From Nymphaea colorata (Eukaryota > Streptophyta > Magnoliopsida > Nymphaeales > Nymphaeaceae), in assembly GCF_008831285.2 (NCBI RefSeq), contig NC_045140.1, forward strand, positions 17,854,370 to 17,918,369: DNA of 64,000 nucleotides. The letters are read 5' to 3'. Below are positions 2,231-61,976 of the stretch, one piece after another. The notes beneath the pieces were generated by a model. The model was not told where the DNA came from, did no database searches, and saw nothing but the letters and a program-made list of their open reading frames with translations. Position 1 is the first letter of the stretch, and every line of letters starts with the position of its first letter. A program made the translations under genes and the position numbers.

Positions 2231-2264
<34 letters not shown>

Positions 2265-34352: not shown

Positions 34353-36707
34353 ATGGATGTGCCCTCCCTCCTCCTGCTCTTCCTCCTCTCACTCTCCTCC
34401 CTCTCTGCTGACGGCATGCTCACAAGCAACTACTACCAGAAGAGCTGCCCACGCGTAGAGGAGATCATCCGGAATGTTGTCATTCAGAAGCAGATCACCA
34501 ATCCCACCACCGCCGGAGGCACCCTTCGCCTCTTCTTCCACGATTGCTTCGTCCAGGGCTGCGACGCGTCCATCCTCATCACATCCACCCCTTTCAACAA
34601 GGCCGAGCGCGACGCGGACATCAACCTCTCTCTCCCCGGAGATGGCTTCGACGCCATCGTCCGGTCCAAGATGGAGCTGGAGCTTACTTGCCCCGGCGTC
34701 GTCTCTTGCGCTGATATTCTCACCATTGCCACCCGCGATCTTGTCAGATTGGTAATGAAACGGATTCCCTAGTACCATAGCAGTAGCTGAGTGAGATCAT
34801 GAGCTAGACTATTCTCTTTTCCCTCGTTGCGAGCACTTGGTTAAATAGCAGCCCATGCATTTTCGGAATAGTTAGATGCATGATGTCTTTCTTCAGTTCC
34901 CCCATTTTTCTGCCTGTTGGCAGAATCTGCAAGCCTCTATCTAGCCCCAGGTTACAGATCACAACAGAGGAAGAAAAGATACTCTTGTTACCATAACCAG
35001 ATACGGAATCTGACGGTTGGTAGGCTACCATCTGTTGTAAGTGGGACAAATTTTCCACATTTTAGATTTTCTACTGTTGATTCTTAGAGTATGATAATTA
35101 TGAGATTTTTTTATTGGCATCTGCTCAACTTCACTTCAGAACAAGCAAAAGAGAAAACGAGGATGCATGTAGATCTTTAATCGTGTTTAGATTAAAAAAA
35201 AAAAGGTTCGTTTTGAGATGGGGGAACATGAGGAACCCACGTTTTGCTTTTCAACTTCGTCAAAGTTTGATGTTTATGAAAATGAGGCTTTTGTTCTTCT
35301 TCGTGCGTGGCACTTTAGGTGACCATCCTGCAACTTTATCGGAAGTCCTTTTCCTAAATGAAAAAGAACTGTTAGATAATGCAGATACTTGTGATTTGAT
35401 ATGCTGGTTTGTTGGACCGTAGTTTCGAGAAACCGCTTTCTGGTGTGAGCTCTCAATTTTTGAAATGAGGGAGTTGAAATTGTATGTCAAGTATTCTACG
35501 CGACGGGCTTCAAAGGATAGCGAATTCTGTCAGTGGAAAATAAAAGGAATGGTCGAATCTTTTTCCATTGCTCTGCCGTTTGATTTTTGAAAAAAGAAAA
35601 GTTCTTGTTTTCATGCAAGATCACATTGTACACAACCATACAAATATTTTCCTGTTAGGTTTTACTCAGGAGCTCGAGATTAGGCATTGATGGGGTTGAA
35701 GATGAAAATGGAGGTGAAAAATGGGAGGATGAAGGTGTCGACTTCTCACGAGTATAACTGAAACCGGGGGGGTGGGGGCGGTGGTTTGAAGATGAAAATG
35801 GAGGTGAAAAATGGGAGGATGAAGGTGTCGACTATATTCTGACGAGTATAACTGAAACGGGGAGATAGTGGCTTATATTTTCTCCTCATCCTTACTGCAT
35901 CCTCTAATGCTGGAAGCCCGAGGAATTGAATTTTCGGGAATTCCAACATCTAATTCCCCATTTTCTGCATCTCTGCCTCATGTCTAGTTCCTAAACGGCA
36001 TCTCAAATTTAAAAATTGTGTTATTATCTGTTCTTTGAAATTGTAAATGTCAGGTGATCCTTTTTAATTCCTACTGGAAAGGTTTTCCGCTTGTTGTCAT
36101 TCTCTTCCTCATGGTACTCGTGTTGCAGGTTGGAGGGCCTTACTACACGGTAAAGCTAGGCAGGAAGGATGGCCTTATTTCTCAAGCTTCTCGGGTACCT
36201 GGCAATCTGCCTCTTCCAACAATGCCGGTTACAGAGCTGGCGTCTCTCTTTTCGTCGAAGGGATTTTCCATTGGAGAAATGACAGCGCTTGTTGGTGCCC
36301 ACACCATTGGCTTTTCCCATTGCAAAGAATTTGCCAAGAGGTTGTACAACTTCAGCCATGGCTCAACTGTTGATCCCTCAATGAACCCACAGTATGCCCA
36401 AGGACTACAGAAGGCATGCGCAAATTACATCAAGAATCCTACTATATCTGCGTTTAACGATATAATGACCCCCAACAAGTTCGACAATGAGTTCTACCAA
36501 AACCTTCCTAAGGGCCTCGGCTTGCTGGCTTCTGATCAGGCGCTCTACTCGGACCCTCGAACCAGAGGCTTCGTGCGTTTATTCGCTTCAAATCAAACCG
36601 CGTTCTTCGATGCCTTTGTTAAAGCAATTGATAAACTGAGCATGGTGGAGGTAAAGGTTGGGAGGCAGGGAGAAATCCGAAGAAGATGCGATGAATTCAA
36701 TTCATGA
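34353..36707 (+). CDS. Class III secretory peroxidase (PRX31/41-like), 2 exons, 325 aa
   Basis: This is a secreted heme peroxidase that oxidises phenolics with hydrogen peroxide at the cell wall. Exons 34353-34751 and 36129-36707 join in phase 0 (978 nt). MDVPSLLLLFLLSLSSLSADG is a signal peptide. TLRLFFHDCFVQGCDAS (57-73) holds distal Arg59 and His63 and the Ca-site Asp64. ALVGAHTIGFSHC (187-198) holds proximal His191. NDIMTPNKFDNEFYQNL and LYSDPRTR match the PRX31/41/63 group, as does the ending GRQGEIRRRCDEFNS. The frame is open upstream of 34353, but the ATG with CCATGG context and signal peptide directly after it decides the start. The 1.38 kb intron contains a two-copy tandem repeat. 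A tandem duplication starting at codon 96 gives a truncated second copy at 47838. Confidence 0.95.
35701..35868. repeat. Two-copy tandem repeat (period 88) in the peroxidase intron
   Basis: GATGAAAATGGAGGTGAAAA followed by GTCGACT and CGAGTATAACTGAAAC starts at 35701 and again at 35789. Unit 2 of the segmental duplication has the same pair at about 48909 and 48990, so the small repeat predates the large duplication. The two loci differ in repeat length. Confidence 0.85.
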
Positions 36708-39700
36708 ACATGCTATGGGCATGACGAAAACAGGAGATATGGACGCTGGCTTGCGATGGTACTAACTTTTTCAAAGGAAGACTTAGTTAGTAGATCTGTT
36801 TCTGTATGGATTGCCTTCTTCTCTCCATCTAATGGCCATCAGTGGTGGCTTAAGCCTGTGATAGAGTGCATTGTTGCCTCTCCATTCTTTTCTGAAGTCA
36901 TTTTGGGTTCTGTTAGCTGCTCATTCGATTCATCTACTGTATGTTCTTGATGGGTGTTTTCTGGGTCCTTAGTGTTATATTTAAGAACTTTGATGGTGTA
37001 GATCGGGGCTCAAATATGTAATAAAAGCATGGCGATTCACACATTGCTGCTTCTGATCTGTTACTTCAAATTCTGTTGGTTCTGTTTCTGGTGGCTTCCC
37101 TCTCTCTCTCTCCCTTTCAATTCAGCTGCTGTGGCTTCTATTAAGAGTGTCGGTGGCGGTGCTGCAGTGAGTACTTTGTGATGCTTCTTGCTTATGTGAA
37201 ACCCGTTCACGTCTCCTCGCATGTTATCAGCCAGAAGGTCTTTTGTTTCTTATCTCGCATGTTATCAGCCACAAGGTCTTTTGTTTCTTATCTCGCTGTA
37301 GTAGCACTTTTCCTTTTTCACTGTACCTGTTTTGCCTTCTTGTCGTAACCCACTTTTTTTCGTCACCATTCCTCAAAGGCTCAAACTCCCCATGAATTTG
37401 CGGCAGTCGACCTGTTTCGCGGTACCTCTTCTCTTCGAGACAGAGAAACTATAAGTCAGCGAAGGAGTTCCCCGTGAAACCATGGTTTTTGTTTGTATTC
37501 AGAATGGGCTGGAAATTGAATTATTCACCTACCAAGATCCTCGTCTTTTTTCCTGAGCTGTGGATCTGCCGCAGCCAACTTAACTGGTTGAGTATAATTT
37601 TGCAGGAAAACAAATCCACCATGTGGAGTAACTTTTACATGCAAAACCATTTATTCAGGTTCTGACATTCTAATAGCTGTTTCAAATTTTTGTCAGTCTT
37701 TAGAGAAAAATAGTTGGAAACTCATATGTTTTTAAACTCTGATGATTTTTAAGAAAAGCAAACTTCTAGACTAAGAGCTCGAAAAACATTGCTAATAAAA
37801 AAAATCAGAAAATGATATTTATGACAATGTAGAAGAATTTGAGATTAAGGTTCGATTAATGTCTACCATTTTTAGCCAGGTAAAGTTGGCGGGACTTTTG
37901 CAGTACAAGGGACTGCAATGAGAATGGACCCCATGATTTGCTTGAAGCTTATGCTTGAACCAGGGCCATCAACATAATTAATACAGTAACCCAACTTTGT
38001 TGCTTCTACTTTAAGCTTGAGTTTAGTGGGGAGCTTCATCAAGTTCATGGAATGACTGTTACTGCACAGGCAGTAGTAACTCACTTCAAGTCTGTCGCAG
38101 TATGAAGTCTGCAAGGGTATGGACTGTGTTGGGAAGCTTCAATGAGGATCTTCTCGAGATCTTGCCTCTGGATGGGGGATGTCAGATTTAACCAAAGGTT
38201 TGGGAGAATGCAGTATCATGGGTGGGTCTATTGGGGAAGTCACCTGTCGTCCTCTGGGAGATTCAGTGGAGGACTTAGGGATCATGGCTTCACTGGATGG
38301 TGAGAAGCGCCGAATTCATATTCTGGTATCGAGCTACAAGATGATGCTGGTGACATTACAATGGACGAAAGTTGCATGTTTCACCAGAGGTTATGGCTGT
38401 TCAAATATGATCTACAACTTCGTTCTTTATAGTCATGGATGTTACAAACTCATCCTTGTTAGAGAGGGTTAACGTGAATGATGCACAATTTTCTATCAAG
38501 GGAATTGTGCAAGTAGATTCTAGTGCTGCTTCGGAACTTGAGTAAAGAACTTAATACCGGTCAACTAAAATGTCACACATTTACTGTTTGTAATTTAGAA
38601 AATTAGCACCTATGGAATCAAACTGGTAACCAGACTTTCACCAGCCCATCAATTTGAGAGCGCAATGCCTCTGCTGGCAGGTGGAGAGAAGTCAAGATGG
38701 TGAAGCTCCCAATTCAGATCATTCCACAAACTGATGCCTTTAGAGGACTTCAAGGGCCCAGGGATGGTAACCAATTCTTTGTGTCGGGAGTTCAGGAAGA
38801 AAGGGATGAGGATCACGGAGTGGCCGAGGAAGTGAACCCTCAAGCTAAAGGAAGGATATTGTAGATGAGATGGTTCAGGATAATCGTTTGGAGAGTGTGA
38901 TGTTTTGTGCAATGGAAATAGTTATGATATCTAAGCCGAATTCCCTGTTGGAGGAGACAACATGTGAAAGAACTGAACCCTTTCTTAGTAGGCCCTGAGT
39001 TCCATCGGGGTTTGCTTTTCTTGTGCAGGATGAGTGGCGGGGGGCTAAGTGGGGCGGGGGAGTGCTGTCAAAGAAGGTAATGTCTGAAAATGGCCACAGG
39101 GCATGGCCTACCTACGGAAGGAAGATGCTTTGGTTCTTAGTTGCCAACCCTGAGAAAGATTTCAGTTGAGAACATGCACCTACAAGGGAGTGAGGTCGTC
39201 TGTGAAAGATGTTGTTTAATATTGCATCAAACTGGGAGATCCTGGACTAGATTTGATTGAAAGACAACTACGAAGTGAGCAACTTGTGATCCTTTCGAGA
39301 TGGATTGACTTTTGTAGGATTGTTCTTCATTTTTATCTATTGAATCGAGTTCTTGGGTGCGTATGTTTTGCTTTCTCTAATCAGTTAGGGGTTTTCATAT
39401 TGTTTTCGTTGAAGGGATGACTTCTTCGGCATCCCTGTGGGGCTTTATACTCCTTTTTTTTTGTGTACTCTGATCACAAAATGCGTATGCTACCTATTCA
39501 ACTAAACTTTTTATGTCTTTGGCAAGCAATTTTGTTGTTTGGATCTTTCTGATTCGTTTCATGGTGCCTGTTCAACAGGTTTCAAATTTCCGTAAACTGA
39601 CATTAGCCACTAAAAAACGCAAACGGTGTTTGTGTCAGCAGAAGAAAAACTTTGATGCTATGATGATTTTGTGAATAATTTTCTTGAAGCAATTTACTGC

Positions 39701-40391
39701 AAAGTTACTGTTGAAAAGCAAAAAAGAAAGAAAAATATTGTAAATCAAATGATATGAGCTTTACTGAGTCGAGCTTTCGGCTCTTTATACATGCATTTCT
39801 ATTAACTCACTGCTGACAATGAAGAAAAAAGAAATCACAAGCCTCAATCTTTGTTGGTGCGTACAGAGCAAAATTAAGCTCTTCTTTTCAATTCATTCAC
39901 TCTTTCGCAATGTGACAAAAAAGAGCTCTGTCATGCTGATGAATGTCGCACAAGACTCACTTTTACACCTCGAACCAAAAGTCCTGTAGGAGCAGAGTTC
40001 CTCTCCTTTCTTAAATACCCAAGTGAAGAGAAAGACAGGTAAGGACATCACGTCTAAAACACAAGGCGACGTGCACAAGAAAACCAGGGAACCACAGTTG
40101 CTGATTGAACATAACGCCATTTTGTGAATGAAGAAATGATACTCGTACCTCCAAGGTTGGTCAGAAAATGCAAACCGCTCTATTCTTTTTGGGCCATTAA
40201 AGATTAGATCCCCAAAATTGTAAAGCGGAAAAGGCACATCTCAACTTGTTAAAAAGCAAATTATAAAGACAGCCATATATTATAACAGCATGTACCCAAT
40301 TTGCCAAATTAAACAAACAAAAAAGAAGAAGAAACGAACACCCTTTTATGTATAGCAAGAGAGAGGAAGAAAGTCGGAAGTCAAAAAAAGC
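36708..40391. other. Peroxidase 3' flank to U-box 3' flank, unit 1
   Basis: The genes converge here. The first 350 bases look like peroxidase 3' UTR. From about 38160 to 39195 there are decayed coding-like stretches, for example an open frame at 38179-38472, whose unit 2 counterpart adjoins a LINE ORF1-like block. The segment 39199-39578 has no match in unit 2, which has a different 300-bp segment there (51874-52176). Nothing here is an intact gene. Confidence 0.65.
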
Positions 40392-42188
40392 TCAAAACTC
40401 CGTGGAGTTGGGCCCGAGTATGAGACGCTTGTGGCGCGCACGAGCTTGAGCAGCTTGCTCCGTGAGGTCGAAGCCGTCATCCTCGGCGGCGTCGGCATCT
40501 CTGCTAGCCGATGATGCCGCCGCGCCTTTCATCAGCAGCAGCAACTTCCCCGCCCGTTCTCTTGCCCGGTCGCTCCCTCGCTCGGCCACCACCGTCAGCA
40601 CCTCCAGCGCGCCGGCCTCCCGTGCCAAGCCCTTGAAGCGCCAGGTATCTCGCGCCAGCAGGCAGAGCGCCGCGACGCTGTGCTCCCGAATCGCTGCCAA
40701 GTGCCTCTCGTCCTCCGTCCCTTGCCAGCTCTCGGCGATTAAGGCTACGAGCGCTGCGACTGCGTTGGCGTCAAGCATTGCGGCCCGGCCTTCCGTGCCG
40801 GCTGCCAAGTTGCAGAGGATGAGCACGGCTCGAGTCGCCAGGCTCGGTTCGTCGCCGCGAGCGAGCGCCATGAGCTTCGGCAGCGCGCCTGCGCGCATCA
40901 GCTTGGCGCGGTTGCCCCTCGCGAACGACAGGTGGTACAGCGCCATTGCAGCGTCCAGCCTGGCGCGGCCGTCCAGGGTGGAGCTGAGCAGGTGGAGCAG
41001 CGGCTGGACCGCGCCCAGCACGCCCAGCGCCGTCCTGTTCTCGTCCTCCAGAGCCAGGCTGAAGATGGCTCCGACGGCGTGCCCCTGTGCTTCCACGTGT
41101 CCTCCTTTGAGCACGTCGATCAATGGCGGGACGGTTCCCGAGCGTACGATCTTGACCTTGTTGACCTTCTCCAGAGACAGGTTGACGAAGGCGGCCACGG
41201 CGTTGACTTGAAGTCCGGCGTACCGCGACGCCATTAACGCCGCCAGGCAAGCGAGCAGCTCGCGCGTGCACATTCTCAGACGCGCGTCCCGGTCCTCGCG
41301 TGTCAGGTTTCGAAGCTCGACGGCGGCCTCCTCCTGGTCTGAGACGATTCCGGACCTCATCTTCGCGATCAGCTCATCCGACTCGCCAGAAGTACCGCAC
41401 GAGATTGAAACAGAGCCGAATGACTCCGACAGGCATGCAGGCCTCGTGGCCAGTTCGAGCGGACGGGCCGATGAGGTGAAGCCCGAGTCTGACGAGTCGA
41501 ATCGATCGAACCGGCGGTTCACCTCCGTTGCTGCGTAGGAGAATTCCACGGCCGGGTCGCTCTGGACTCGGCTGAGGATCTGTTCCGAGCCGGATAGACC
41601 TAAAATGGAGTCGTCGGGCGTCAGATTACTTCGGGAAATCGAGTCCGGTGAATCGATGGGAACGAGTTGCAGGTCACTTTCGGAGGCGGTGAGAGAGGCA
41701 CCGTCGATGCTCCTGTACGATTTCGACCCCGAGTCGGAGCAGTCCATTCGGCACTCCATTTCTGAGGTGGAACAGAGATCGGCGGAGGGGTCCGCGACGC
41801 GGGAAGCGTCCTCCGTCGTTGGGGACGTTTCTACGAACTTGTGCGCGAGAGCAGCGGCCGTCTCGGGGTCCGGCGGGTCTGGCAGCGGTAAGCCGGAGTC
41901 GCGGCACCAGTTGGCGATGGCCGTCTTGAGGGCGATATTGGGGATTAGAGTTGGGGTGGAGGTGGTGGTGGTGGCTGTTGACGGGAAGAGTTGTTGTTGG
42001 TGGTGGTTGGGAGGTAAGGCAAGGAGGGCCTCGATGCATCGGCGCTCGAAGGTCTGGCCGGAGGGAACGATGACGGGGTCTGCCATGGGAGCGTTGGAGA
42101 TGGGGCACAGGAACTCGAGCGGTGGCGCTTTCTGGCGTTGCTGACGGAAGTGGAAGGATATCCTCCACCGGTTTTTTCCGCTGCCCAT
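40392..42188 (-). CDS. U-box/ARM-repeat E3 ubiquitin ligase (PUB38-41 group), copy 1, 598 aa
   Basis: This is a plant U-box E3 ligase that transfers ubiquitin from an E2 to substrates bound by its ARM repeats; the target is unknown. The gene is intronless. The U-box occupies about residues 22-100, starting PPLEFLCPISNAPMADPVIV and continuing SGQTFERRCIEALL. A His/Gln- and Thr-rich insert (61-81) precedes LIPNIALKTAIANWC. Residues 110-275 form a Ser/Asp-rich linker. ARM repeats span about 276-555 (e.g. GLQVNAVAAFVNLSLE, EAQGHAVGAIFSLALED, LDAAMALYHLSF). The C-terminus is acidic then basic. MGSGKNRWRISF at the N-terminus matches the PUB38-41 group, which places the start at 42188; the frame stays open upstream without an ATG. 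GC content is far higher than in flanking DNA. A near-identical second gene lies at 52905. Confidence 0.94.
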   Translation of the reverse strand: MGSGKNRWRISFHFRQQRQKAPPLEFLCPISNAPMADPVIVPSGQTFERRCIEALLALPPNHHQQQLFPSTATTTTSTPTLIPNIALKTAIANWCRDSGLPLPDPPDPETAAALAHKFVETSPTTEDASRVADPSADLCSTSEMECRMDCSDSGSKSYRSIDGASLTASESDLQLVPIDSPDSISRSNLTPDDSILGLSGSEQILSRVQSDPAVEFSYAATEVNRRFDRFDSSDSGFTSSARPLELATRPACLSESFGSVSISCGTSGESDELIAKMRSGIVSDQEEAAVELRNLTREDRDARLRMCTRELLACLAALMASRYAGLQVNAVAAFVNLSLEKVNKVKIVRSGTVPPLIDVLKGGHVEAQGHAVGAIFSLALEDENRTALGVLGAVQPLLHLLSSTLDGRARLDAAMALYHLSFARGNRAKLMRAGALPKLMALARGDEPSLATRAVLILCNLAAGTEGRAAMLDANAVAALVALIAESWQGTEDERHLAAIREHSVAALCLLARDTWRFKGLAREAGALEVLTVVAERGSDRARERAGKLLLLMKGAAASSASRDADAAEDDGFDLTEQAAQARARHKRLILGPNSTEF

Positions 42189-42256
42189 TTCCCTCCTCCT
42201 CTCCCTCACTGTGGACAAGATCTCCAGCGATCGATAGAACGAGAACGGCCCTGTGG

Positions 42257-42327
42257 TCTCTCTCTCTCTCTCTCTCTCTTAGGCGGGAGGAAACATCAGG
42301 AGAAGTCTTCCACCAGAGAAAAGCGAC

Positions 42328-42364
<37 letters not shown>
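42257..42364. repeat. Facing (TC)n and (AG)n tracts in the U-box copy 1 leader
   Basis: A TC run (42257-42279) and an AG run (42331-42364) lie 50 bases apart, 70-175 bases upstream of the U-box start codon. They are complementary, so a leader transcript through both could fold on itself. Copy 2 has a longer CT run (54771-54808) but only an interrupted AG remnant. Confidence 0.85.
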
Positions 42365-42368
<4 letters not shown>

Positions 42369-42839
42369 CGGGGCCACTTTCCAAACGCCAATCACTATTT
42401 TCGATCTTTTAGAGATGCTTCTGTTGAGAAGGAGATAAAAACGGATCAGAAAGATCGACCCCGTGGATGATGATCAAAACTATAAGTCTAACCACGTTAA
42501 ATTTTTGCTTCCTCTTCTTTCTCTCACTGAAGAACAAAGGAGCCAACTACAGAACATGGTGATCTTATCCACCGGCGTTGTTTTCCCGGTGGTTTGGGCT
42601 GTTGAGCACTAGAATCTAGGACATCCAAGAATTTCCAGAACGCATTTTCATATTTTTTTTTGGACCTCCCAACAAGGAGCGATCGATTTTTTTCTTTTTT
42701 TTGGAACGATTGCTCAACAGCAACAAACAGTGTTCAGTTATTTCATTCTCCATTCCTTGTTCAATGGCAACACCAAACTCCTCATATTCAACAACAGTTA
42801 GTCTTAGCTCTCCTCCACTTGGAATGGGTTTTTCAGGTT

Positions 42840-43570
42840 AGTATCCATCAAGTTAGATCAAACAAATTATTTGTTATAGCGTTCTCAAATTACCAATGTA
42901 AGTTAGATCAAACAAATTATTTGTTATAGCGTTCTCAAATTACCAATGTTAGGAAGAGTCAAGGGCCACTTAGGTATGTCAACAGCACCCTTACTATTGC
43001 TCCTAGTATCTTGACGCATATCAAACAATAGTAAATCTCTATTTTGAAGTATGGAAACAAACAGATCAGTTAGCTTTAAGCTGGACTAAGGTTACAGTAT
43101 TCGAACATATTCTGCCACAATTAATTTCATATTCAACTGCACATGAGACTTGGTGTGTTCTAGAACAACAATAATGTTTTTCAATCTAAATTGCAAATCA
43201 TTCAGTTAAAGAAATTTATAAAACGTAAAGAAAGGAGATATGATGATGGCTGATTATTTAAATCATGTCAAATTCTTATGACTTTTTAGTTGCTGTTAAT
43301 CATAAGGTCTCTGACACTGATTTGGTTTTATGTACTTTTAATGGACTATCCACTAAATATAAGGTCTTCATCACTACGGTAACTACATTCAAGACTACCA
43401 GGTTTTCCTGAAATTTTTGACATACTCATTTCTCAAGAAAATCGTTGGCAAATTCTTTCACCTCCTCTTGATATTTCTCAAGAAACAAAAACGGTTGTCA
43501 TGATTGCTCATGGGACTGACAGCCATGGGAATTCTTATGCAAGAGGGAGAGGAGACTAAAACGGTGGTGG
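42840..43570 (+). mobile_element. Ty1/copia gag remnant
   Basis: Broken frames show KLDQTNYLL then a stop then RSQ (42851 on), where copia gag usually has KLDRSNYLLWRSQ, so Trp is mutated to a stop. Later come KGDMMMADYLNHVKF and VNHKVSDTDLVLCTLNGLST, the hallmark gag segment (YLxKIKS...VSDxDLVLxxLNGL), and an Arg/Gly-rich ARGRG tail. Many stops and frameshifts show it is dead. No LTR was recognised. Confidence 0.75.
42850..42949. repeat. Perfect 50-bp tandem duplication inside the gag remnant
   Basis: 42850-42899 and 42900-42949 are identical (start AAGTTAGATCAAACAAATTA). The duplicated unit is the KLDQTNYLL-coding segment with its stop, so the duplication arose after the element was already inactive or inactivated it further. 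Confidence 0.9.
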
Positions 43571-43730
43571 GTTGGGAGGGATCGTTTGCTAACCAACTGA
43601 TGGTCTCTTGAGCAGTATTGGGTGGTAGTGTTCTAGAGTATAAAAAGGTATTTTCACCAAATATAACATGTCTTGAAATAGTGACATGCTCGTTCAAGGG
43701 ATTGTAACACATGTAGCCTTTAAAACATTT
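43500..43730 (-). mobile_element. Ty1/copia integrase C-terminal remnant, opposite orientation
   Basis: On the minus strand the frame reads KGYMCYNPLNEHVTISRHVI then FGENTFLY. This matches the copia pol segment usually written KGYRCYDP...VYISRDVIFDE..FPY, which lies after the integrase core. Direction is opposite to the neighbouring gag remnant, so two insertions, or an inversion, are needed. Confidence 0.65.
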
Positions 43731-44404
43731 TGGGAATTCAAGAAAAACACACTCATGAGACTTTGGAGCAAGTTTTGATTTATTTTGAAGACTTACTAAT
43801 GGATAAGCAGTGCATCTAAAAACTTTAAGATTCTCTAGTTGAAGCTTAGTATCAAGAAATTTCTCATATGAACTTGATGGTATTCAGAAGTTGAGCTTAC
43901 TGAATAAATAAAGCTATCGTAGGTGACAAAATAGTGTTTGATTTTGGAATGAGTTCAGAAGCCTATGGGGCGCAGCACTAAAACTATTTCTTTATGTTTT
44001 TTCAATCTCAAGTTGTCACCCAAAGTTAGTAAATGAGATGTGTTCACTCTCTGACTGAATAGCTCTACAACATGAATTTTCACTCATTCTTAAATATTGC
44101 CTCAACTGCTGATGTATTGATGAAAAGTGTGCTGAAAATCAAATGAAGAACTCGCACAGCGGGATGATCGTTTTTACTGGTTAAAATGAATTTCATGCTG
44201 CACGTATGGATCGAATAACATAATGCATATGCAGCATGGGTGCTTTGGGGCTCTCATTCATACTTTCTCAAGTTTACCCAACAACCAAGAGGGGTGTGTT
44301 TAGTAACAGTAATATTTGTTACTGTCCCATGATCCTACCCCAAAAAATGAGACAAATTCATAACACATTGTAACAAGTATTCCACAAACCCGTTTCATTT
44401 TTTG

Positions 44405-46642
44405 TGAGTTTAGAGCATACAATACTTCATTAGTGAACAAAACAAGAGTATTTCTTCATACTGCCTAACAGATATACCAGACACGCATTTGGTACATTCA
44501 AGAGACTTTTCCTATAATGTTTCAACTTGCACATCGGTATTCAACTATAAAGAACAAGAATTACAACACTTAAGAGGCGATTAATGGTTTGGAATTTTGA
44601 TTCAAAAATGAAACTTTTAGAACCGTAATTCTTCCTCAAACTAGATAAAATCAAAATTCTAGGTTCACTTTCCTAATTCCTGAAACAAAATACCCCTTTC
44701 GTTTAATATATCCATTTTTTTTTTAAATGAGCATTTTGATTCTAAAATTACATTATTCTAGTTATATCAACCGAGCCCTGATGTTCTTTGATTATCGTTT
44801 TCTTTTTCCCTTTCTTTTAAGCTAAATGGGTTTACACTCTCATTAATCGTGCATATAACATATTAGATCCTTTATTGTGTTGAAACTAAAAGGACTTTTT
44901 ACAATGTGGTCTTACCAAGGGATGTCAACCATCTCGGAACAGGTCTAATCGGATCTGGCTTTGAATTCATATTAGGATTGGATTTTTTGAAATCGAGTTT
45001 TGACCCGACTAGATATATCATTGGGTATGTTAGCATATGATTAAATTACATGATAATTTTCTTTTACTGACCCTTTTCCCTGAAAATTTTGCTTTTTCAT
45101 ATGCAAGAAAGTGAAAACTCTCAGCTTAAACTTTACGTTTTGATTTGGGGATGTGGGGGTGGGTGTGATTTCACTGGTCCAATACACCCTAAATATTTTA
45201 TCTGGTCATCGAAAGCCGCCTTAGGGTTGGTCTTAACTTATTTACTTGTTCACTGTACACTTACAAGGTGGATGTGACAGAGTAGTTGTTCATATCTCAT
45301 CTTCTCCGACTGTACCAAATTAATTTGTCGGTGAATCACAGAAGCGACGTACTGTGCGCCGGCCAAATGCACAGTGTTTTTAAAAATTAAGGAGGAGTAC
45401 TACAGTTGATGGGCCTTCTTCTCTTTCAAAGGCTTATCAATGTTGGAAAGAAGAAAGAAGCAATGGCAGCAGTAGCTTTGTTTTTGACCTGTCATATAAC
45501 TTATTTTTGTGGAAGTTCTTTAACCTCTTTCGTTGTTTCATGATCTTGAACGCTTCTTTTATGAGCACCAAACAATTTTAATGGTTGATATGAACTTTTT
45601 TTTTAATGTTTACTAAGAGAAACTGCTTTTTTGTGTAAAACTCTTCTAAAGAGTTGCCTTGTTTTCTGGTAAGCAATCATTGGCTTATAGCTAAGCTGCC
45701 CAGTATAACGAAGTCAGCTAACTCGACAACAATATATGAATGATCATTTACAGAAAACAAATAGGAAACTATCTAATGGGTCTATCGTTTTCTATCCCAA
45801 GGTTGGGGAATCTTTTGGGCAGTGATCTCGAAAAAGGAGGAAACGATGCTTGCTGAGCATCGCTCGAGTTTGTTTAAAAGGTCAAGGGCTGCCAGAAACT
45901 TCCCCATGCTTTTGTCCCCATCATGCCAGACAGAAGGGCCAAGCATCAGAAGGACAAAACGTTTGTCAGAAACGTCGACAAACCTTGACCTGTATTAATC
46001 GTAGGACATATTTTGTTAGCAGATAAGAAGTTTACGTTTTGGATCAGAAATGCAGTAACGCACGGAAGCAGGAAAAGAAAAAAAAAACAGGCGAGAAGAT
46101 GATCTTATTCACTTTGCTTAAAGACTTGTGCAAGAGTCTTGGAGATCCCAACTTACATTGCAAAACTCTCCTCCTCAGGATCCCTCTCTATTGTACTCAC
46201 GAAGGATCGGTAACTGTTAAGAATGCCTCAATTTGGTTTAAAAAAGATCTCCAGCAAACAATCTCCACAGCCCAATTGAACTTCAAAGAAATGTTTCTTT
46301 CTTATCGTATGATAAAGCCACGGTTGCCACTAAAACAAGGTCCACAGACTTTTAAGAAGCTGACTGACTGTATTCTCTTGACGCTTTCAGTTTCTTTTCT
46401 TTTTCATCTTTTCTGTAAACCAATGTGTTCTCCGACATCAAACCTCTGAAGTTTTTTTCTTCTATTTTATATGCATCATCGCAGTTTGCCAGCAAGTAAA
46501 TTACTGGGACAACCCACAGAAATCGAATGTTGACATTTTGCTGATGACGACAATGACAAAAGATTATATACTTGTGCCTTGCATTTGACATTTTGCTGAT
46601 GACGACAATGACTAAAAACCCTATAAAAGAACACTTTTCTGC

Positions 46643-46681
<39 letters not shown>

Positions 46682-52904: not shown

Positions 52905-54701
52905 TCAAAACTCTGTGGAGTTGGGCCCAAGTATGAGACGCTTGTGGCGCGCACGAGCTTGAGCAGCTTGCTCCGTGAGGTCGAAGCCGTCATCCTCGGC
53001 GGCGTCGGCATCTCTGCTAGCCGATGATGCCGCCGCGCCTTTCATCAGCAGCAGCAACTTCCCCGCCCGTTCTCTTGCCCGGTCGCTCCCTCGCTCGGCC
53101 ACCACCGTCAGCACCTCCAGCGCGCCGGCCTCCCGTGCCAAGCCCTTGAAGCGCCAGGTATCTCGCGCCAGCAGGCAGAGCGCCGCGACGCTGTGCTCCC
53201 GAATCGCTGCCAAGTGCCTCTCGTCCCCCGTCCCTTGCCAGCTCTCGGCGATTAAGGCTACGAGCGCTGCGACCGCGTTGGCGTCAAGCATTGCGGCCCG
53301 GCCTTCCGTGCCGGCTGCCAAGTTGCAGAGGATGAGCACGGCTCGAGTCGCCAGGCTCGGTTCGTCGCCGCGAGCGAGCGCCATGAGCTTCGGCAGCGCG
53401 CCTGCGCGCATCAGCTTGGTGCGGTTGCCCCTCGCGAACGACAGGTGGTAAAGCGCCATTGCAGCGTCCAGCCTGGCGCGGCCGTCCAGGGTGGAGCTGA
53501 GCAGGTGGAGCAGCGGCTGGACCGCGCCCAGCACGCCCAGCGCCGTCCTGTTCTCGTCCTCCAGAGCCAGGCTGAAGATGGCTCCGGCGGCGTGCTCTTG
53601 TGCCTCCACGTGTCCTCCTTTGAGCACGTCGATCAATGCCGGGACGGTTCCCGAGCGTACGATCTTGACCTTGTTGACCTTTTCCAGAGACAGGTTGACG
53701 AAGGCGGCCACGGCGTTGACTTGAAGTCCGGCGTACCGCGACGCCATTAACGCCGCCAGGCAAGCGAGCAGCTCGCGCGTGCACATCCTCAGACGCGCGT
53801 CGCGGTCCTCGCGTGTCAGGTTTCGAAGCTCGACGGCGGCCTCCTCCTGGTCTGAGACGATTCCGGACCTCATCTTCGCGATCAGCCCATCCGACTCACC
53901 AGAAGTACCGCACGAGATTGAAACCGAGCCGAATGACTCCGACAGGCATGCAGGCCTCGTGGCCAGTTCGAGCGGACGGGCCGATGAGGTGAAGCCCGAG
54001 TCTGACGAGTCGAATCGATCGAACCGGCGGTTCACCTCCGTTGCTGCGTAGGAGAATTCCACGGCCGGGTCGCTCTGGACTCGGTTGAGGATCTGTTCCG
54101 AGTCGGATAGACCTACAATGGAGTCGTCGGGCGTCAGATTACTTCGGGAAATCGAGTCCGGTGAATCGATGGGGACGAGGTGCAGATCACTTTCGGAGGC
54201 GGTGAGAGAGGCATCGCCGCTGCTTCTGTACGATTTCGACCCCGACTCGGAGCAGTCCATTCGGGACTCCATTTCTGAGGTGGAGCAGAGATCGGCGGAG
54301 GGGTCCGGGACGCGGGAAGCGTCCTCCGTCGTTGGGGATGTTTCTACAAAATTGTGCGCGAGAGCAGCGGCCGTCTCGGGGTCCGGCGGGTCTGGCAGCG
54401 GTAAGCCGGAGTCGCGGCACCAGTTGGCGATGGCCGTCTTGAGGGCGATATTGGGGATTAGAGTTGGGGTGGAGGTGGTGGTGGTGGCTGTTGACGGGAA
54501 GAGTTGTTGTTGGTGGTGGTTGGGAGGTAAGGCAAGGAGGGCCTCGATGCATCGGCGCTCGAAGGTCTGGCCGGAGGGAACGATGACGGGGTCTGCCATG
54601 GGAGCGTTGGAGATGGGGCAGAGGAACTCGAGCGGTGGTGCTTTCTGGCGTTGCTGACGGAAGTGGAAGGATATCCTCCACCGGTTTTTGCCGCTGCCCA
54701 T
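52905..54701 (-). CDS. U-box/ARM-repeat E3 ubiquitin ligase (PUB38-41 group), copy 2, 598 aa
   Basis: Full-length duplicate of the gene at 40392-42188, with the same length, start and domain order: U-box about 22-100, Ser/Asp-rich linker 110-275, ARM repeats 276-555. I count 17 amino-acid differences. Twelve fall between residues 117 and 272 (among them K117N, A132P, C146S, I161S, D162G, G163D) and five in the ARM region (P355A, G369E, V372A, A428T, E492G). The U-box is identical. No stop or frameshift is present, so both copies look functional. The upstream flank is shared with copy 1 for only about 230 bases beyond the ATG, so promoters differ, which could give different expression. Confidence 0.94.
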   Translation of the reverse strand: MGSGKNRWRISFHFRQQRQKAPPLEFLCPISNAPMADPVIVPSGQTFERRCIEALLALPPNHHQQQLFPSTATTTTSTPTLIPNIALKTAIANWCRDSGLPLPDPPDPETAAALAHNFVETSPTTEDASRVPDPSADLCSTSEMESRMDCSESGSKSYRSSGDASLTASESDLHLVPIDSPDSISRSNLTPDDSIVGLSDSEQILNRVQSDPAVEFSYAATEVNRRFDRFDSSDSGFTSSARPLELATRPACLSESFGSVSISCGTSGESDGLIAKMRSGIVSDQEEAAVELRNLTREDRDARLRMCTRELLACLAALMASRYAGLQVNAVAAFVNLSLEKVNKVKIVRSGTVPALIDVLKGGHVEAQEHAAGAIFSLALEDENRTALGVLGAVQPLLHLLSSTLDGRARLDAAMALYHLSFARGNRTKLMRAGALPKLMALARGDEPSLATRAVLILCNLAAGTEGRAAMLDANAVAALVALIAESWQGTGDERHLAAIREHSVAALCLLARDTWRFKGLAREAGALEVLTVVAERGSDRARERAGKLLLLMKGAAASSASRDADAAEDDGFDLTEQAAQARARHKRLILGPNSTEF

Positions 54702-54767
54702 TTCCTTCCTCCTCTCCCTCACTGTGGACAAGATATCCAGCGATCGAATGAACCAGAATGGGCCTGT

Positions 54768-54770
<3 letters not shown>

Positions 54771-54808
<38 letters not shown>
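54771..54808. repeat. (CT)19 microsatellite in U-box copy 2 leader
   Basis: A CT run 70 bases upstream of the copy 2 start codon. It is longer than its copy 1 counterpart (23 bases) and is followed by an eroded AG tract near 54873-54893. Confidence 0.9.
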
Positions 54809-54812
<4 letters not shown>

Positions 54813-55148
54813 TAGGTGGGAGGAGACATCAGAAGAAGCCTTCGGCCAGAGAAGAAGCGAGTCAAGCGACTACAGAGAGATAGGGAGAGAGAAGACGGGG
54901 CCACTTTCCAAACGCCAAATCGATCTTTTAGATGTCCTGCACATGAATGTGTTTCACTTCCACCAATTGTTTATTAGGATATTTCGGGATTGTCATTCCT
55001 TTCATTCTCTCACCGCAGAAATTTAAAAAAAAAAATTAACACTTGCTGAAATCAAATAAAAAACTTTTGACTCATTAAACGCAGTTTTTCAGCACATTGG
55101 ATGATTCCGATTTCGCTTTCAAAATACAACTCTACTGAATTTTAAATT

Positions 55149-55254
55149 CTCAACTGATTTTCTTTACAATTTTTCCTTCTTTTTTCTTATTCAGTCAATG
55201 TCTCAGCTGATTTTCTTTACAATTTTTCCTTCTTTTTTTTTTATGCAGACAATG
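55149..55254. repeat. Two-copy tandem repeat, period 53
   Basis: CTCAACTGATTTTCTTTACA and CTCAGCTGATTTTCTTTACA begin the two units at 55149 and 55202. Both continue AATTTTTCCTTCTTTTTT and end in TCAATG or ACAATG. Confidence 0.85.
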
Positions 55255-57238
55255 GCTTGATTGAAGCTCGGGTTCTCTTTACCATGATGATGAATTTATC
55301 ATGGAACAACGTTCGGATTATTACAGCAGAGAAAATACTGTTCTTTTTCTTTTCTGAATAGAAAGGGTATTTATTATCCTGATTTAAATTTTCCCACTTT
55401 AATTTCGTGGAGATGATGTCATGCGCTTTAAAGAAGAGGATGACGTGAGTTTACAGAGGAGAAGACATCATAATTGATATCAATCAATGCCTTGTACCCT
55501 TACTACCTCCTTTTTTTTGTAATCAGGAATTGCAGGTTTCCCCGCAAGAACAATGTTCAATGTTCCAAGTCTTGGAAGAAAAAGTTTGACGATTCATTTG
55601 GGCCCATGCATTATCTTGACTCACATCAGCTTCTGGACTGGGTCAAATCCAGCTCCTCCATCGGAATCTACGTACCTTTCTCTCACGGATGGAGCCAAGT
55701 AAGACCGGCCTCATATTTTTAAAAAACATGTTCAAATCCTTGTAAGAATTTTTTTAAAAAATATATTGGCTGGGTCCCAAGACAAAAATCCTGGCTGTCA
55801 TGTTATGTGTTTGCATTTGATTCTCGCAACTCTTAGCAGTCAATTGAGGGTCCGTTTGGCAATTGGAACACTCAAAGTGTTCCGTGAATCAATCCTAAAA
55901 ATTGAGTTAGTTATTCTGAAACATGATAGAAATTGTTGGTCTGTCTGGCTGATTAATGGCACTTGAGTAGTTATTTGATAACAACACGATGTGAATGTTT
56001 TATAAATCTGTCTCAAAGATTAGAGACATATTCATGTAGCACTAAAACACGTGTTCTATGAATCTACCTTAATTTTTAAATCAAATTTATAAAACACTCA
56101 CCCACAAAGTGTTTCTACCACCAAACAGAGGTGAGGCGAGGAGACAGGTGTATATCTTTTTGAAAACGGAGACGAAAAGAAAAACTCTTGGAACTTTTGC
56201 ACCTTAAATATGTTTTGCAACCAACACATGCGTAAGAACAACTCTTTGTCTTCTGCAATAAATGATGCTTAAGACAGTCGGACTGTGACTGCTTGTCTCG
56301 TAGCTATGGCGGACTGCATAGAAGCAGTGTCTTGGAATCATAGACGTGGATCCTTGTGCTCCACATAATGCTCACAGACACAGATGAGACTGCACATATA
56401 CGCAAGAAACATGAAAAAGATGAGGCTTTTGTTTGATTAATTGGGGTTTTACTATGACAATGATAGTAAAATTGACTGAACTTCAAAGAGGGGGGAGGTT
56501 GGGCCCCATGATTGGATGCATGCAGATATAAAGGAAAAAGCAGCTCCAGTTGCCATCCACCTTTGATCAGGAATTATTGACCCACAGAACTTGTGAAATT
56601 CCTTGATTCTCTTTGTTTATCAACATTCGAAAGCCAACTTTAACTTTTGCCTCTTCGTTATATATTTCATGGGGCCAATAACATGGGTGGCAAGAAGAAA
56701 GCAGCTCTTTCTTTTCTTTTGGCGGCCTTCTTATTCTGTGTCCTTCTTTGTTTATGATTTTTATATGAGGCAGTCAGAGACTTAAGAGTTAAGGATCCAA
56801 AAGTGGGTCAGTCTCAGCCCTCAAAGCCTTTGTTTGAGTGACACTAGAAATCTAAGGTTTTGTTTTTGCTTGAAGTAGAATATTAAATTGCGTCTTCTAA
56901 GCACTGTTTCATATTGGAACGCACCAGCCTTTTATACCCATTCTTCTCTGTCTTGCGTGTCCTGATCGTTCGATCTCTGTCTGATGCTTGCGTCGATTTC
57001 GCCTAAACAAAACGTGTCCGTTCTGTTCCGTGACATTTCAATGCATTCAAACGACCTCTTAAGGGACAACCTACCATGAGAAACATCATGTCAGTGTCCT
57101 ATGAATCCATCTAGAATATCAAAGTGTTTTTTAATCTATTTTAATATTTTGAGATAGATTTATGAAACACTGTGTAAAATGTGCACTGTTCTAATTATCT
57201 CTTGCTTGAAAAAGCTTCTAAGTTACTTTACCTGGTTA

Positions 57239-57409
57239 TTGAGAAATTTCTTCAGAAACAAGTTATATGTTATTCAAAGAAAGGTCCCAAAGATTTTAAT
57301 TTCTCCAACTTCAAGTTATTTTCCCCGATGTTGAGAAATTTCTTTAGAAACATGCTATGTGATATTTAAATGAAGGTCCCCAAAGATTTTAATTTCTCTA
57401 ACTTCATCG
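57239..57409. repeat. Two-copy tandem repeat, period about 92
   Basis: TTGAGAAATTTCTTCAGAAA (57239) recurs as TTGAGAAATTTCTTTAGAAA (57331). Both run through AAAGGTCC or GAAGGTCC, then CCAAAGATTTTAATTTCTC and AACTTCA. Confidence 0.85.
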
Positions 57410-59319
57410 GTTTTACTAAGGTCAAGCAAAAGTATCCAAAGGCTCACCTCACCAGTTGTATAAGACGATGAAAGGCGAGGTGAGTACGAAAGATTAGTTG
57501 GACGATGACAGGCAACTGGCGGGACCATGCCGTATTCACAAACCACAGCTCTACCAAACGTCTCGCTCACACGTTGCTTCTTGCACAAGCGATCTGAATT
57601 TAATAGCCGAACTAAATTCAAAATTTGATTTCACAATCTGAATTTCATCTGATTTCAGCATTCAAATATAAATCCAAAATTTGAGTAGAATGTGGCCAAT
57701 TTTCAAAATACAAGAGCATTAGATACAAAACATTTATTTAAAATCAAATCCGATGTAAATATGAATCCAAATTCAATCAGATATTTATGTATATCCGAAT
57801 CGTTCTTTCTAAAATCTAAATCCGATCTGATTTTTGATCGGCCATAAACAAGTTTTTCATGTCTAACTTTTTTGGAACGATTCAGATAGATATCTCACAC
57901 GTCTTACTTCTTGATGTAGTATCCAAAGATGCCTTAGGATATACGATATCCGGCGGAGCTACCGTGGTGGACCTTGCTTGACCCCGCCTGTGAAATGAAT
58001 GATTATTACCCTTTTGCCTTCAGCTTTTTGGAAGTAAAAATACACAAGAAAGCGTTTCCTCCATTACCAAATACTGCCAACTTATTACATCCAATCGTTC
58101 TGTATCGGAAGATGCTCCCATTTAATTGCTCGACGCAGAAAGCATCATTCACATCATATTTTATTTATTTCACCCATAAACATACGGTAGTCTAAAAAAT
58201 AAAATAAAACAAGTTGTTCCCTTTTGTCATAGTTGATAATAAGTATGATTATTATTTAACGGCTGAGAACTCTTGAGAAGACATTCTTGAAAAATAAGTA
58301 ACTTCAACAAGTATAATACCAACTTGGAGTGTACGCCATGAGGAGCACCCAGCTAACTTCTTTAATGTGGATATTTACACGTGAGGATGAAAAATTTATA
58401 TACTTTTTTCCCCTTCACTTGAATTCCTGGCTGTCCCCGACAGCATGCAATTTATAATTAATGAGTTCTATTGGGGCCAACAACGTTCCCGATGAGTCAT
58501 AATTTATGCTTAATGATCAAGCTTCACTAAGAAATGACAGTTCCCAATGGCATTCTTATGTCGCTCAAAGCCGAACTTAAAGACTAGACAAATTGATCTT
58601 ATTTATAGATAAACTTTGTCCAATGTTGCTTCCCGATGAGGGCAAAGTCCCTTACTTCTCATCCCATCTTTCTTTTGATGTCTCATGGTGACTTCTCTAT
58701 TATATTTTAACTTGCATATATATATTGTTGTTTTCTTTTTATAGTATAGACAATTGATATTACAAGAGCTCGAAACAAAGACAGACAATTGATGTTATAA
58801 GAGCTCGAGCTCGAAATAAAGACTGGTCACCTACCGATCTGTCATACCAACCTCCTTGAACATCTTTATCCAATATTGATTTACACATAATTGATCAAAT
58901 GATATTTGAAAATGGTTCTTTTGGATGCTCTGAAATTTCTTGCTCTCATTGGACCATTGAGGATCTTGATGCATGGATCTCTTGACTGAACAAATAGGAG
59001 GATCAAACCCACTTTTTTCTTAACTCTTGTTCAGATTCCACAAATTTTGGTATATATTTTCATCTTGCCAAATGTTTTTGTTTTTTTTTTCAATAGGCTA
59101 AAAGCTGTTTATTAGCGTTCAAAAAGAGCAGCTATGTCGCTTTTGGCAAAGGCGAGTTAGACTTGCTTTGAAGTTAGAAAGGCCGAGAAGAATTTGTTTT
59201 CGTTGGCACGGTGGTGTCCGCTGGACGCTAACAGCACGACCTTAACAATAAAAATAAGCATTTGTTAAAGAACGGGCAGTTGAATACGAGTTCGTGCAAA
59301 TTTTATTAACTTTCGAATA

Positions 59320-61976
59320 GTAGAGCGTAGAGTACTTTAATTAATTAGTGAACAAAACAAGAGAATGTTTTTCATATCGAGTAATAGACTTATGAGAGCC
59401 GCATTTGGTATATTCTGGAGACATTTTCTACAATGTTTCAACTTGCACATCGGTTTTCAAGAATAAGAGTTACAACACTTAAGGGGGGTTCATAGTTTGA
59501 AATTTTGATTCAAGAATGAAACTTTTAGAACCTAATTCTTCTTCTTCAAACTAGATGAAATCAAAATTCCAGGTTTAGTTTCTTAATTCCTGAAACAAAA
59601 TACCCCTTTTGTTTAATATCTCCAATTTGTTAAAAAATGTGCATTGGTTCTAAACTTACGTTCTAGTTATATCAAACAAGCCCTAATGTTCTTTGATTAT
59701 TAGTTTTTTTTTTTTTTTCAAGCTAAATGGGTTTACACTCTCATTAACATATTAGATCGTTTATTGTGTTGCAACTAAAGGGACTTTTACAATCTGGTCT
59801 TACCAAGGGATGTCAACCATCTGGGTGCAGGTCTAATCGGATCTGGCTTTCAATTCAAATTAGGATTGGATTTTTTGAAATGGAGTTTCGACCTGACGAT
59901 ATATATAATTGGGTATGATAGCATAGGATTAAATTACATGATAATTTTCTTTTACTGACCCTTTTCCCTGAAGTTTTGCATTTTCATATGCAAGAAGATG
60001 AACACTCTCAAGATAGAAACGTGACAATGACAATGAGATTCGAACTTAGAACCTCTTATAGCTAAGCTGCCAAGCAATCCCTGGCTTCTAGCTAAGCTGC
60101 CAAGCATAACGAAGTCAGCTAACTCGACAACAATATATAACATTGCTAGAGAATGATCATTTACAGAAAACAAATGGAAACTGATCTAATGGGTCTATCG
60201 TTTTCTATCCCAAGGTTGGGGAATCTTTTGGGCGGTGATCTCGAAAAAGGAGAAAACGATGCTGCTGAGCATCGCTCGAGTTTGTTTAACAGGTCAATGG
60301 CTGCCAGAAACTTCCCCATGCTTTTGTCCCCATCATGCCAGACAGAAGGGCCAAGCATCAGAAGGACAAAACCTTTGTCAGAAACGTCGACAAACCTTGA
60401 CCTGTATTAATCGTAGGACATGTTTTGTTACCAGAAAAGAAGTTTAAGTTTTGGATCAGAACTGCAGTAGTGCACGGAAGCAGAAAAAGAAAAAAAAACA
60501 GGCGAGAAGATGATCTTATTCACTTTGCTTAAAGACTTCTGCAAGAGTCTCTGGAGATCCCAACTTACATTGCAAAACTCTCCTCCTTGGGATCCCTCTC
60601 TATTGTACTCACGAAGGATCGGTAACTGTTAAGAATGCCTCAGTTTGGTTTAAGATGGATCTCCAGCAAAACAATCTCCACAGCCCAATTGAACTTCAAA
60701 GAAATGTTTCTTCCTTATCGTATGAGAAAGCCACGGTTGCCACTAAAACAAGGTCCACAGACTTTTAAGAAGCTTACTGACTGCATTCTCTTGACGCTTT
60801 CAGTTTCTTTTCTTTTTTCATCTTTTCTGAAAACCAATATGTTTTCCAATACCAAATCTCTGAAGTTTTTTTTCTTCTATTTTATATGCATCATAGCAGT
60901 TTGCCAGCAAGTAAATTGCTGGGAAACGCCACAGAAATCGAACGTTGACATTTTGCTGATGACGACAATGACTAAAAAGATTATATAGAAGAATACTTTT
61001 GCCTTGCATTTGACATTTTGCTGATGACGACAATGACAAAAAAACTCTATAAAAGAACACTTTTCTGCAACCTTTCAATTCCACAAAATTTGCATCTTCA
61101 AATGCACAAGAGGAAAAAAAAAAAAAAAAACTCGACAAACACAAAGAACCAAACGAGCGACAGAGACGCATTCTATTTTTAACTTATGTAAAACTCTTTT
61201 TAAAATGAAAAAAGTAAAAACTATAGAAAAGAGTCTCACAGAATCTGAATCTGCTCCATACAAAATAATGATTTATCACACAAGAGCACACAAAATTTTT
61301 ACTCTTCAATTCAAACTCAAAAACACTACGGGAGAGAAATAACAAATAAATAAGAACGTAAAAACTGGAAGAATATCATCTAATCATGCAGAAATGACAA
61401 TTTTAAAATCAAAATCACTCGTTAGTTCTCTCCCTTTTTTTTTTTGTAAAACAAAGAGACATTGAGGAGCTGATGAAGATCACATATAATATAACCCAAG
61501 TAAAAATTAAACTTTTTTCACTCTGTGACTTTCTTTTTCTTAGGTTCAGATGATTGCAATAGTGGAGGAGGCATCTCTCTCTAAAGGGGACCTACTCCTT
61601 TTCTTTCTTCTTCGTTTTCCTTTTGCCTTTACTCAGAAAATGGATGCAAGGGTTAATGTCTTTTCTGGGGAGCGCAGAGAAGTTGGCCAGCTAGGAGGGC
61701 CCCCTTTCCCTTGCCCTTGATTTTTTTTAGAGCCCGGCCAAACGGTCTAAAGATTTATATGGGTATGGTCAAACTAAACTCGAATCTAAAAAATACATTA
61801 CGCAACTAAAATTTTCAATTTTTGTAATGTAATTTTTTTTTTTTTTCAGTTAGTTGGGGTGGAGCCAGAGTAACAAACAATAAATAGGGTTGTTGACATT
61901 TACCATGGAGAAGAGGGTCCTCCACATGGAGGGGACCGGACCCAAAGTAACCTAACAGCTTCAGTTCACAGCCTTT
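59320..61976. other. Non-genic right part of duplication unit 2
   Basis: Counterpart of 44405-47560. It retains the paired TTGACATTTTGCTGATGACG repeat (about 60946 and 61015) and the distal segment with TTTACTCAGAAAATGGATGC. Apart from the small open frame listed separately, I see no gene. Homology ends at about 61976. Confidence 0.6.
60153..60410 (+). other. 85-codon open frame, frameshifted in the other unit
   Basis: It starts with a real ATG and reads IPRLGNLLGGDLEKG and later NFPMLLSPSCQTEG. The unit 1 copy is truncated by a one-base insertion. I recognise no family. Either it is the remnant of a final exon of a gene carried within the duplication, or a chance open frame. The Ser/Pro-rich end and lack of upstream exons favour caution. 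Confidence 0.25.

Follow-up and report, generated by a model that had tools for sequence, protein, structure and literature searches.

Tandem copies are frequent in plants and some of them cut through genes, so the type of event described here is an ordinary one. One published example (PMC6092874) is HvARM1, which arose by partial duplication of HvPUB15, a U-box/ARM ligase. For the class III peroxidases of Nymphaea colorata, a survey of 94 genes names tandem duplication as a route of family growth (PMC11788295).

We analysed a window of 64,000 nucleotides on N. colorata chromosome 3. It probably carries a genuine tandem duplication of about 13–14 kb, with subsequent losses and insertions specific to each copy and homogenisation of the peroxidase. 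The locus resembles HvARM1 in that a duplication truncated one gene, the partial copy is open and a U-box/ARM gene is involved (PMC6092874). On the other hand, here the U-box gene was copied whole and the peroxidase in part, and the locus is known from sequence alone. The peroxidase is a published one from the same genome, NcPOD87; the survey lists only this complete copy, and no row among its 94 corresponds to the truncated, headless neighbour (chr3 17902216–17904277; PMC11788295). For the ligase, no survey of water lily U-box genes was found, judged by title.

Results

Self-BLAST of the window revealed two adjacent units in direct orientation with collinear shared blocks. Eight direct A/B pairs were found in constant order, with bit scores of 111–4345, far above chance:

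34638–47846, plus strand: unit A, of which the final 315 bp (47532–47846) are partnerless in B
47847–61963, plus strand: unit B
34638–37401/47847–50595, direct: A/B pair, 94.2% identity
38162–38443/50592–50873, direct: A/B pair
38586–39199/51285–51875, direct: A/B pair
39574–39923/52173–52524, direct: A/B pair
40021–42413/52522–54932, direct: A/B pair, 92.6% identity
44411–45123/59328–60010, direct: A/B pair
45671–47266/60072–61717, direct: A/B pair
47445–47531/61876–61963, direct: A/B pair

These coordinates agree almost to the base with the direct tandem units of 13–14 kb proposed in the first-pass annotation. No further copies were found in the 20 kb downstream of the window. The copied stretch comprises most of the NcPOD87 class III peroxidase gene, downstream DNA and, on the opposite strand, a gene for a U-box/ARM E3 ligase. 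The genes are as follows:

34353–34751, plus strand: peroxidase A exon 1, codons 1–133 including the distal Arg59/His63 motif (PF00141; NcPOD87 = Nycol.C01180)
36129–36707, plus strand: peroxidase A exon 2 with stop (PF00141; whole protein 325 aa)
47838–47960, plus strand: candidate new first coding exon of peroxidase B, with ATG AAG ATA of A's tail in frame with codons 96–133, donor GT retained
49330–49908, plus strand: intact exon 2 of peroxidase B, differing from A at 4 bases
40392–42188, minus strand: gene A for the U-box/ARM E3 ligase, 598 aa in one open exon (PF04564, PF00514, PF25598)
52905–54701, minus strand: gene B for the U-box/ARM E3 ligase, open frame of 598 aa (PF04564, PF00514, PF25598)

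Copy A is a class III peroxidase, with PF00141 in both exons, R59, H63, H191 and eight cysteines, and its PDB matches span residues 23–325. The roles of these residues (distal Arg and His, proximal His) are those that we assume from HRP numbering. Copy B begins at codon 96, and no match to the peroxidase promoter or to codons 1–95 was found in unit B. PDB matches of B to HRP begin only at residue 75–76 of HRP. Because the signal peptide, one disulfide partner and both distal residues (Arg and His) are absent from the headless copy, it cannot be a normal peroxidase. From the in-frame junction ATG onwards its frame stays open, and the splice sites are retained. Other peroxidases were considered as the source of the headless copy and rejected, as the exons of the chromosome 8 gene show just 77–82% DNA identity and the chromosome 9 gene matches over only about 58 bases of DNA (39–46% protein identity).

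In both ligase copies an open frame encodes a U-box and, behind it, ARM repeats; each unit has the complete gene that had been claimed for it. In a whole-genome protein search, the full-length U-box gene has two close copies, both on chromosome 3 (100% and 97%). Of the 60 matches in all, the next is a gene on chromosome 8 that aligns in two stretches, at 62% and 54%; behind it come two short fragments on chromosome 1 and weaker relatives. The distance between this chromosome 8 gene and the start of NcPOD34 is about 88 kb, with order and orientation as on chromosome 3.

The divergence of the units was compared with that of their homeologs. A/B dS is 0.044–0.051 (0.044 for the U-box genes) versus 0.74–0.93 (NG86) to the homeologs, the latter being close to the published whole-genome duplication peak (about 0.9; PMC7015852). 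Scaled against that older event, the tandem duplication would be roughly 7–10 Myr old. An earlier judgement that the event was recent was based on exon 2. The count behind it is accurate (4 of 579 bases between 36129–36707 and 49330–49908), but this is the most similar part of the units, and the U-box dS as well as the 6.3% divergence of intergenic DNA at 38162–40385 (99 of 1569 sites) speak against it. BLAST identity of 94% on the left and 84% on the right might indicate two ages. This model is mostly rejected: gap costs account in part for the low 84% on the right, and substitutions there amount to 6.8% in 45671–47266 and 5.3% in 45671–47017. Because substitution-only divergence is similar on the left and right, most of the non-coding DNA is compatible with a single age. 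Two stretches stand out from this fit at 12–13%, namely 44411–45123 (11.8%) and 47018–47531 (13.2%).

Exon 2 and part of the intron are anomalously similar between the units, which makes later homogenisation likely. Non-coding differences are scarce at 35005–35605 (8/600), and none of 2000 permutations gave a value as low; the intron part at 35636–36028 is not low (19/377). This pattern points to likely gene conversion between the two peroxidases in the region of intron 1 and exon 2; such conversion would keep the headless copy young-looking. Divergence is uneven in both directions, with a hot stretch at 44414–44724 (45/300; 0 of 2000 permutations as high), and mutation-rate variation, rather than conversion, may therefore explain some of the low value in the intron. 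The high dS of the exon 1 remnant (0.19, five changes) also speaks against conversion.

Each unit additionally carries DNA that is missing from the other:

37402–38161, no strand: block in A, absent in B, with TTGC at both edges (self-BLAST)
42414–44410, no strand: A-only DNA upstream of U-box A (self-BLAST)
43458–43883, minus strand: retroelement polymerase fragment within the A-only DNA (PF25597)
54933–59327, no strand: DNA found in B only, lying between its U-box gene and the shared blocks to the right (self-BLAST)
54933–55030, minus strand: U-box upstream DNA present in B and in a chromosome 1 palindrome, missing in A (sequence comparison)

The block at 37402–38161 is either a microhomology deletion in B or an insertion in A. 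The DNA at 54933–55030 is probably ancestral, and ligase A appears to have lost upstream DNA. Losses and insertions particular to each copy would have followed the duplication on both sides. Of the earlier statement that non-coding blocks were exchanged or lost on both sides, the losses and gains are real; the sign of exchange between A and B lies not in these blocks but within the intron and exon 2 of the peroxidase. The locus is a clean case: A keeps the full peroxidase and a ligase apparently minus upstream DNA, and B the reverse.

Discussion

The left break is sharp. It lies inside peroxidase exon 1, as had been proposed, with its edge exactly at 34638/47847, corresponding to residue 96 of the 325-aa peroxidase. 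One event had been suggested to have produced both a new E3 ligase and a beheaded peroxidase. Both products are present, but a single origin is unproven because the last 315 bp of A (47532–47846) have no partner in B and a later deletion spanning the junction could have taken the head. Downstream of 61963, neither the rest of the window nor the following 20 kb gave a match to these 315 bp, which are a poor fit to a plain one-step duplication. In a genome search, 47267–47846 matched itself and the known B partner of 47445–47531 and nothing else; on this search the junction DNA was rejected as a multi-copy transposon, although a lack of matches does not prove rarity. Judged from these sequences, 47847 may differ from the original breakpoint.

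It is possible, though not likely, that the duplication originally spanned the whole peroxidase gene or began further left, and that a later deletion at the A/B junction removed B's head and promoter start. Copy B would then have been complete and constrained for most of its life. Such a deletion accounts for the partnerless 315 bp if these are filler or remnant, and also for the few coding changes in B (polarised by the chromosome 8 homeolog, 2 sites in B, 5 in A and 2 ambiguous). Only 1 of the 9 changes is non-synonymous, with P 0.003–0.009 if B is neutral and A fixed. Yet it requires one more event, no match to the missing head or promoter was found in B, and a 315-bp loss from B's right end gives the identical asymmetry.

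An assembly artefact, in which two diverged haplotypes of a single locus were placed end to end, seems unlikely. Heterotype false duplications can cut genes and affected 4–16% of earlier vertebrate assemblies (PMC9516828). The N. colorata genome was assembled with Canu 1.3 from PacBio RSII reads, and the available part of its description does not mention haplotype purging (PMC7015852, which gives PRJNA565347 for the public PacBio reads). The low coding change of B is also what is expected of an intact allele. False duplications are, however, mostly separated by gaps (PMC9516828), whereas the window, the preceding 10 kb and the following 20 kb contain no N. U-box B also has amino-acid changes of its own (B: 9 N + 5 S; A: 4 N + 6 S; ambiguous: 13). 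Synonymous divergence of 4–5% together with multi-kilobase indels is high for alleles and argues for a genuine duplication.

Assuming a genuine duplication, the headless copy could encode a 233-aa protein from the junction ATG, or could be an untranslated relic renewed by conversion. The copy shows no visible decay, unlike what is expected of a dead gene. That B is a selected, expressed 233-aa protein lacking secretion and the distal pocket, with a regulatory or decoy role like HvARM1, appears rather improbable. The in-frame junction ATG with intact splice sites, and a single amino-acid change among the 230 codons shared with A (Ala to Val at codon 202 of A's numbering), are consistent with such a role. 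An in-frame ATG before a stop is nevertheless expected in about 1/4 of cases by chance (estimated from codon counts), conversion with A accounts for the conservation without selection, and two changes in B are unremarkable at the low-intron rate (P 0.11).

The chromosome 1 palindrome (chr1:17535195–17536211), 1 kb in length, derives from the 5′ end of the tandem U-box gene and contains promoter-proximal DNA, 5′ UTR and U-box codons. It is a long inverted repeat of the gene with perfect 21-mers to it, and could yield a hairpin RNA matching both U-box copies. The palindrome resembles plant miRNA genes of inverted-duplication origin (PMC3237417), being an inverted duplicate of the 5′ end of a protein-coding gene with a predicted long hairpin; it differs from them in being known from its DNA only and in holding upstream DNA beside coding sequence in its arms. 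A literature search on N. colorata small RNAs and inverted repeats found nothing relevant. It is very unlikely that the palindrome works as a hairpin locus, with siRNAs against the two U-box copies that put a trans-acting dosage brake on the extra copy, and that the headless peroxidase is at the same time kept as a translated non-enzyme. If transcribed, the palindrome would represent a young gene-derived hairpin whose target has been duplicated, in a flowering plant of an early-diverging lineage. Its two arms are mismatched at 53 of 528 columns.

The tandem units and their junction

The window was placed at C3:17854370-17918369 of the 407.8 Mb genome. NcPOD87, the complete peroxidase of the left unit (peroxidase A), is listed in Table 1 of an N. 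colorata peroxidase survey at chr3 17888113-17891407 with 325 aa (PMC11788295). These coordinates correspond to window positions 33744-37038, and the gene model built here also has 325 aa. For NcPOD34 (chr8) and NcPOD75 (chr9) the positions likewise agree with that table.

Comparison of the window with itself, as proposed in the first-pass annotation, recovered eight main blocks, direct and collinear, shared by 34638-47531 in unit A and 47847-61963 (unit B). One extra 36-bp block was found by a more sensitive self-comparison. The predicted breakpoint inside a peroxidase exon was confirmed: the left edge of unit B can be fixed to the base, with homology starting at 47847, which equals 34638 and codon 96 of peroxidase A. 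The last recognisable A/B pair is 47445-47531/61876-61963. If the duplication were a plain tandem one, the sequence that precedes 47847 and closes unit A should reappear at the end of unit B. For 47532-47846, no partner was found at that end or within the following 20 kb, and searching the genome revealed no further copy. The last 315 bp could have been lost from unit B, 47532-47846 could be filler DNA at the junction, or peroxidase B could have been beheaded by a later deletion across an older A/B junction. Since the data do not choose among these histories, the proposed origin of both products in one event is unproven; the complete second ligase and the beheaded peroxidase themselves stand. 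The duplication with its truncated partner is real, well described and ordinary.

Elsewhere in the window, 16242-17848 (+) carries a class 3 lipase domain (PF01764) followed by an EDS1 EP domain (PF18117) in the next open stretch, which we take to be an immune gene of the EDS1/PAD4/SAG101 type. An open stretch at 24890-25342 (-) contains a glycosyl hydrolase family 47 domain, and two 113-bp copies, 100% identical, lie side by side at 18442-18666.

Divergence and age

The Ks comparison of the two units gave a dS of 0.044 for the U-box genes and 0.051 for the peroxidases. Between A and B, 99/1569 aligned sites differ in intergenic 38162-40385 and 69/1292 in 45671-47017. On chromosome 8, a peroxidase and a U-box gene lie about 88 kb apart in the same order and orientation; the dS to this pair is 0.74-0.93 (NG86, both genes), and up to 1.68 with YN00 for the U-box pair. 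The NG86 values are near the published whole-genome duplication peak at a dS of about 0.9, which is located close to a split dated 147-185 Ma (PMC7015852). Simple dS scaling suggests a rough age of 7-10 Myr for the A/B duplication. The event had been called recent from exon 2, where indeed only 4/579 bases differ (one amino-acid change), but the intergenic and U-box divergence and this age do not bear that out.

The headless peroxidase

Immediately ahead of codon 96 stand the codons ATG AAG ATA, and their ATG is the first in-frame start met on tracing the frame backwards from the junction; five codons separate it from the first in-frame stop farther back. With the kept splice sites it gives a 233-aa open frame in peroxidase B. 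Without residues 1-95, this frame has no signal peptide and is missing Arg59, His63 and three cysteines (32, 65 and 70), whereas His191 is retained; by analogy with horseradish peroxidase, we take Arg59 and His63 to be distal and His191 proximal. Because the signal peptide, distal residues and cysteines are missing, a product can hardly be a peroxidase. The junction ATG by itself is not evidence of function.

Five changes in 114 bases, all silent, were found in the exon 1 remnant (dS 0.19, high). Polarised by the chromosome 8 gene, five of the nine coding differences, all of them silent, arose in A and two in B, and two are not assignable; B's two sit in one codon, Ala to Val. At the intergenic rate, about 22 changes would be expected in B alone over 693 bases. 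If B drifted freely and A was fully fixed, at most one amino-acid change among nine has P = 0.003-0.009 over the range of transition bias. Intron 1 is also low, with 40/1360 differences versus 99/1569 intergenic (Fisher P 1.7e-5), and 35005-35605 has 8 differences in 600 columns (0/2000 permutations as low). At the rate seen in this stretch, two changes in B would not be unusual (P 0.11). The simplest common cause of the low intron and coding divergence is A/B gene conversion, which we prefer because a dead gene's intron has little reason for conservation. Against conversion speak the high dS of the exon 1 remnant and the intron part 35636-36028, which contains an 80-bp repeat and is not low (19/377). 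Divergence also departs upwards at 44414-44724 (45/300; 0/2000 permutations); rate variation is therefore real, which again counts against conversion. The 80-bp unit is repeated twice in intron 1 of both copies (35692-35862 and 48902-49061), and the part that contains it is more diverged than the remainder of the intron.

The U-box genes and a chromosome 1 palindrome

U-box A and B each have an uninterrupted 598-aa reading frame that encodes U-box and ARM domains. Between the two there are 20 silent and 17 amino-acid changes; no amino-acid change falls within residues 1-110. Polarised changes number 4 N + 6 S in A and 9 N + 5 S in B (13 not assignable); U-box B, though open, may be somewhat relaxed.

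Self-inverted repeats related to U-box sequence or lying beside such a repeat were found in two adjoining chromosome 1 stretches, L031 and L032:

chr1:17535195-17536211 (G000:C1; L031:9195-10000 + L032:1-211), U-box palindrome, self-inverted repeat of 1 kb
L031:6825-7569, further self-palindrome, 69.6%
L032:3723-4376, further self-palindrome, 89.5%

The U-box palindrome is 91% identical over 1022 columns, its arms differing at 53/528 aligned columns. Each arm aligns with the U-box gene over a stretch that runs from around codon 65 across the 5' UTR and on into upstream DNA. For the 1017-nt strand, 458 arm-to-arm pairs are predicted with an MFE of -978 kcal/mol, whereas ten mononucleotide shuffles average -350. 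Exact 21-base matches start at 130 positions in U-box A, 155 in U-box B and 6 in the chromosome 8 homeolog (2.0-2.1 kb compared each). If transcribed, the palindrome would form a long hairpin that shares numerous exact 21-mers with each of the tandem U-box genes. In a four-way alignment of A, B and both arms, 338 of 403 ungapped columns are invariant; branch counts, with no outgroup, are A 14, B 22, arm1 7, arm2 8, AB-against-arms 10 and other 4. These counts place the separation of the arms close in time to the A/B duplication, in an unrooted order.

Sequencing-adapter chimeras are expected to be near-identical and of read length; in our judgement the arms, at some 90% identity and 500 bp, are unlike this. 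Both further self-palindromes lie beside the U-box palindrome. As all three lie within 7.6 kb and a scan of 17 sequences (224 kb in total) found no palindrome of at least 300 bp in the 15 others, this stretch is palindrome-rich. The palindrome and the undecayed headless peroxidase stand out as the most interesting leads.

Copy-specific sequence

Non-coding blocks had been described as exchanged or lost on both sides; one-sided blocks, read as losses and gains, do occur in A and in B. Unit A alone carries 37402-38161 (760 bp, TTGC on both edges) and 42414-44410 (2.0 kb, with a retroelement polymerase fragment), and unit B alone 54933-59327 (4.4 kb). Upstream, one arm of the chromosome 1 palindrome matches B as far as 55030 and the second arm as far as 55001; with A, the match stops at 42397. 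In the simplest interpretation, B retains and A has lost about 70-98 bp of ancestral U-box upstream sequence, although the palindrome could instead be derived from B. If this DNA is ancestral, the damage would be complementary: A has the complete peroxidase, and B the ligase's ancestral upstream region. At 61720-61862, unit B has a repeat of about 145 bp that is missing at the corresponding place in A; its relatives occur on chromosome 1 and, close to NcPOD34, on chromosome 8.
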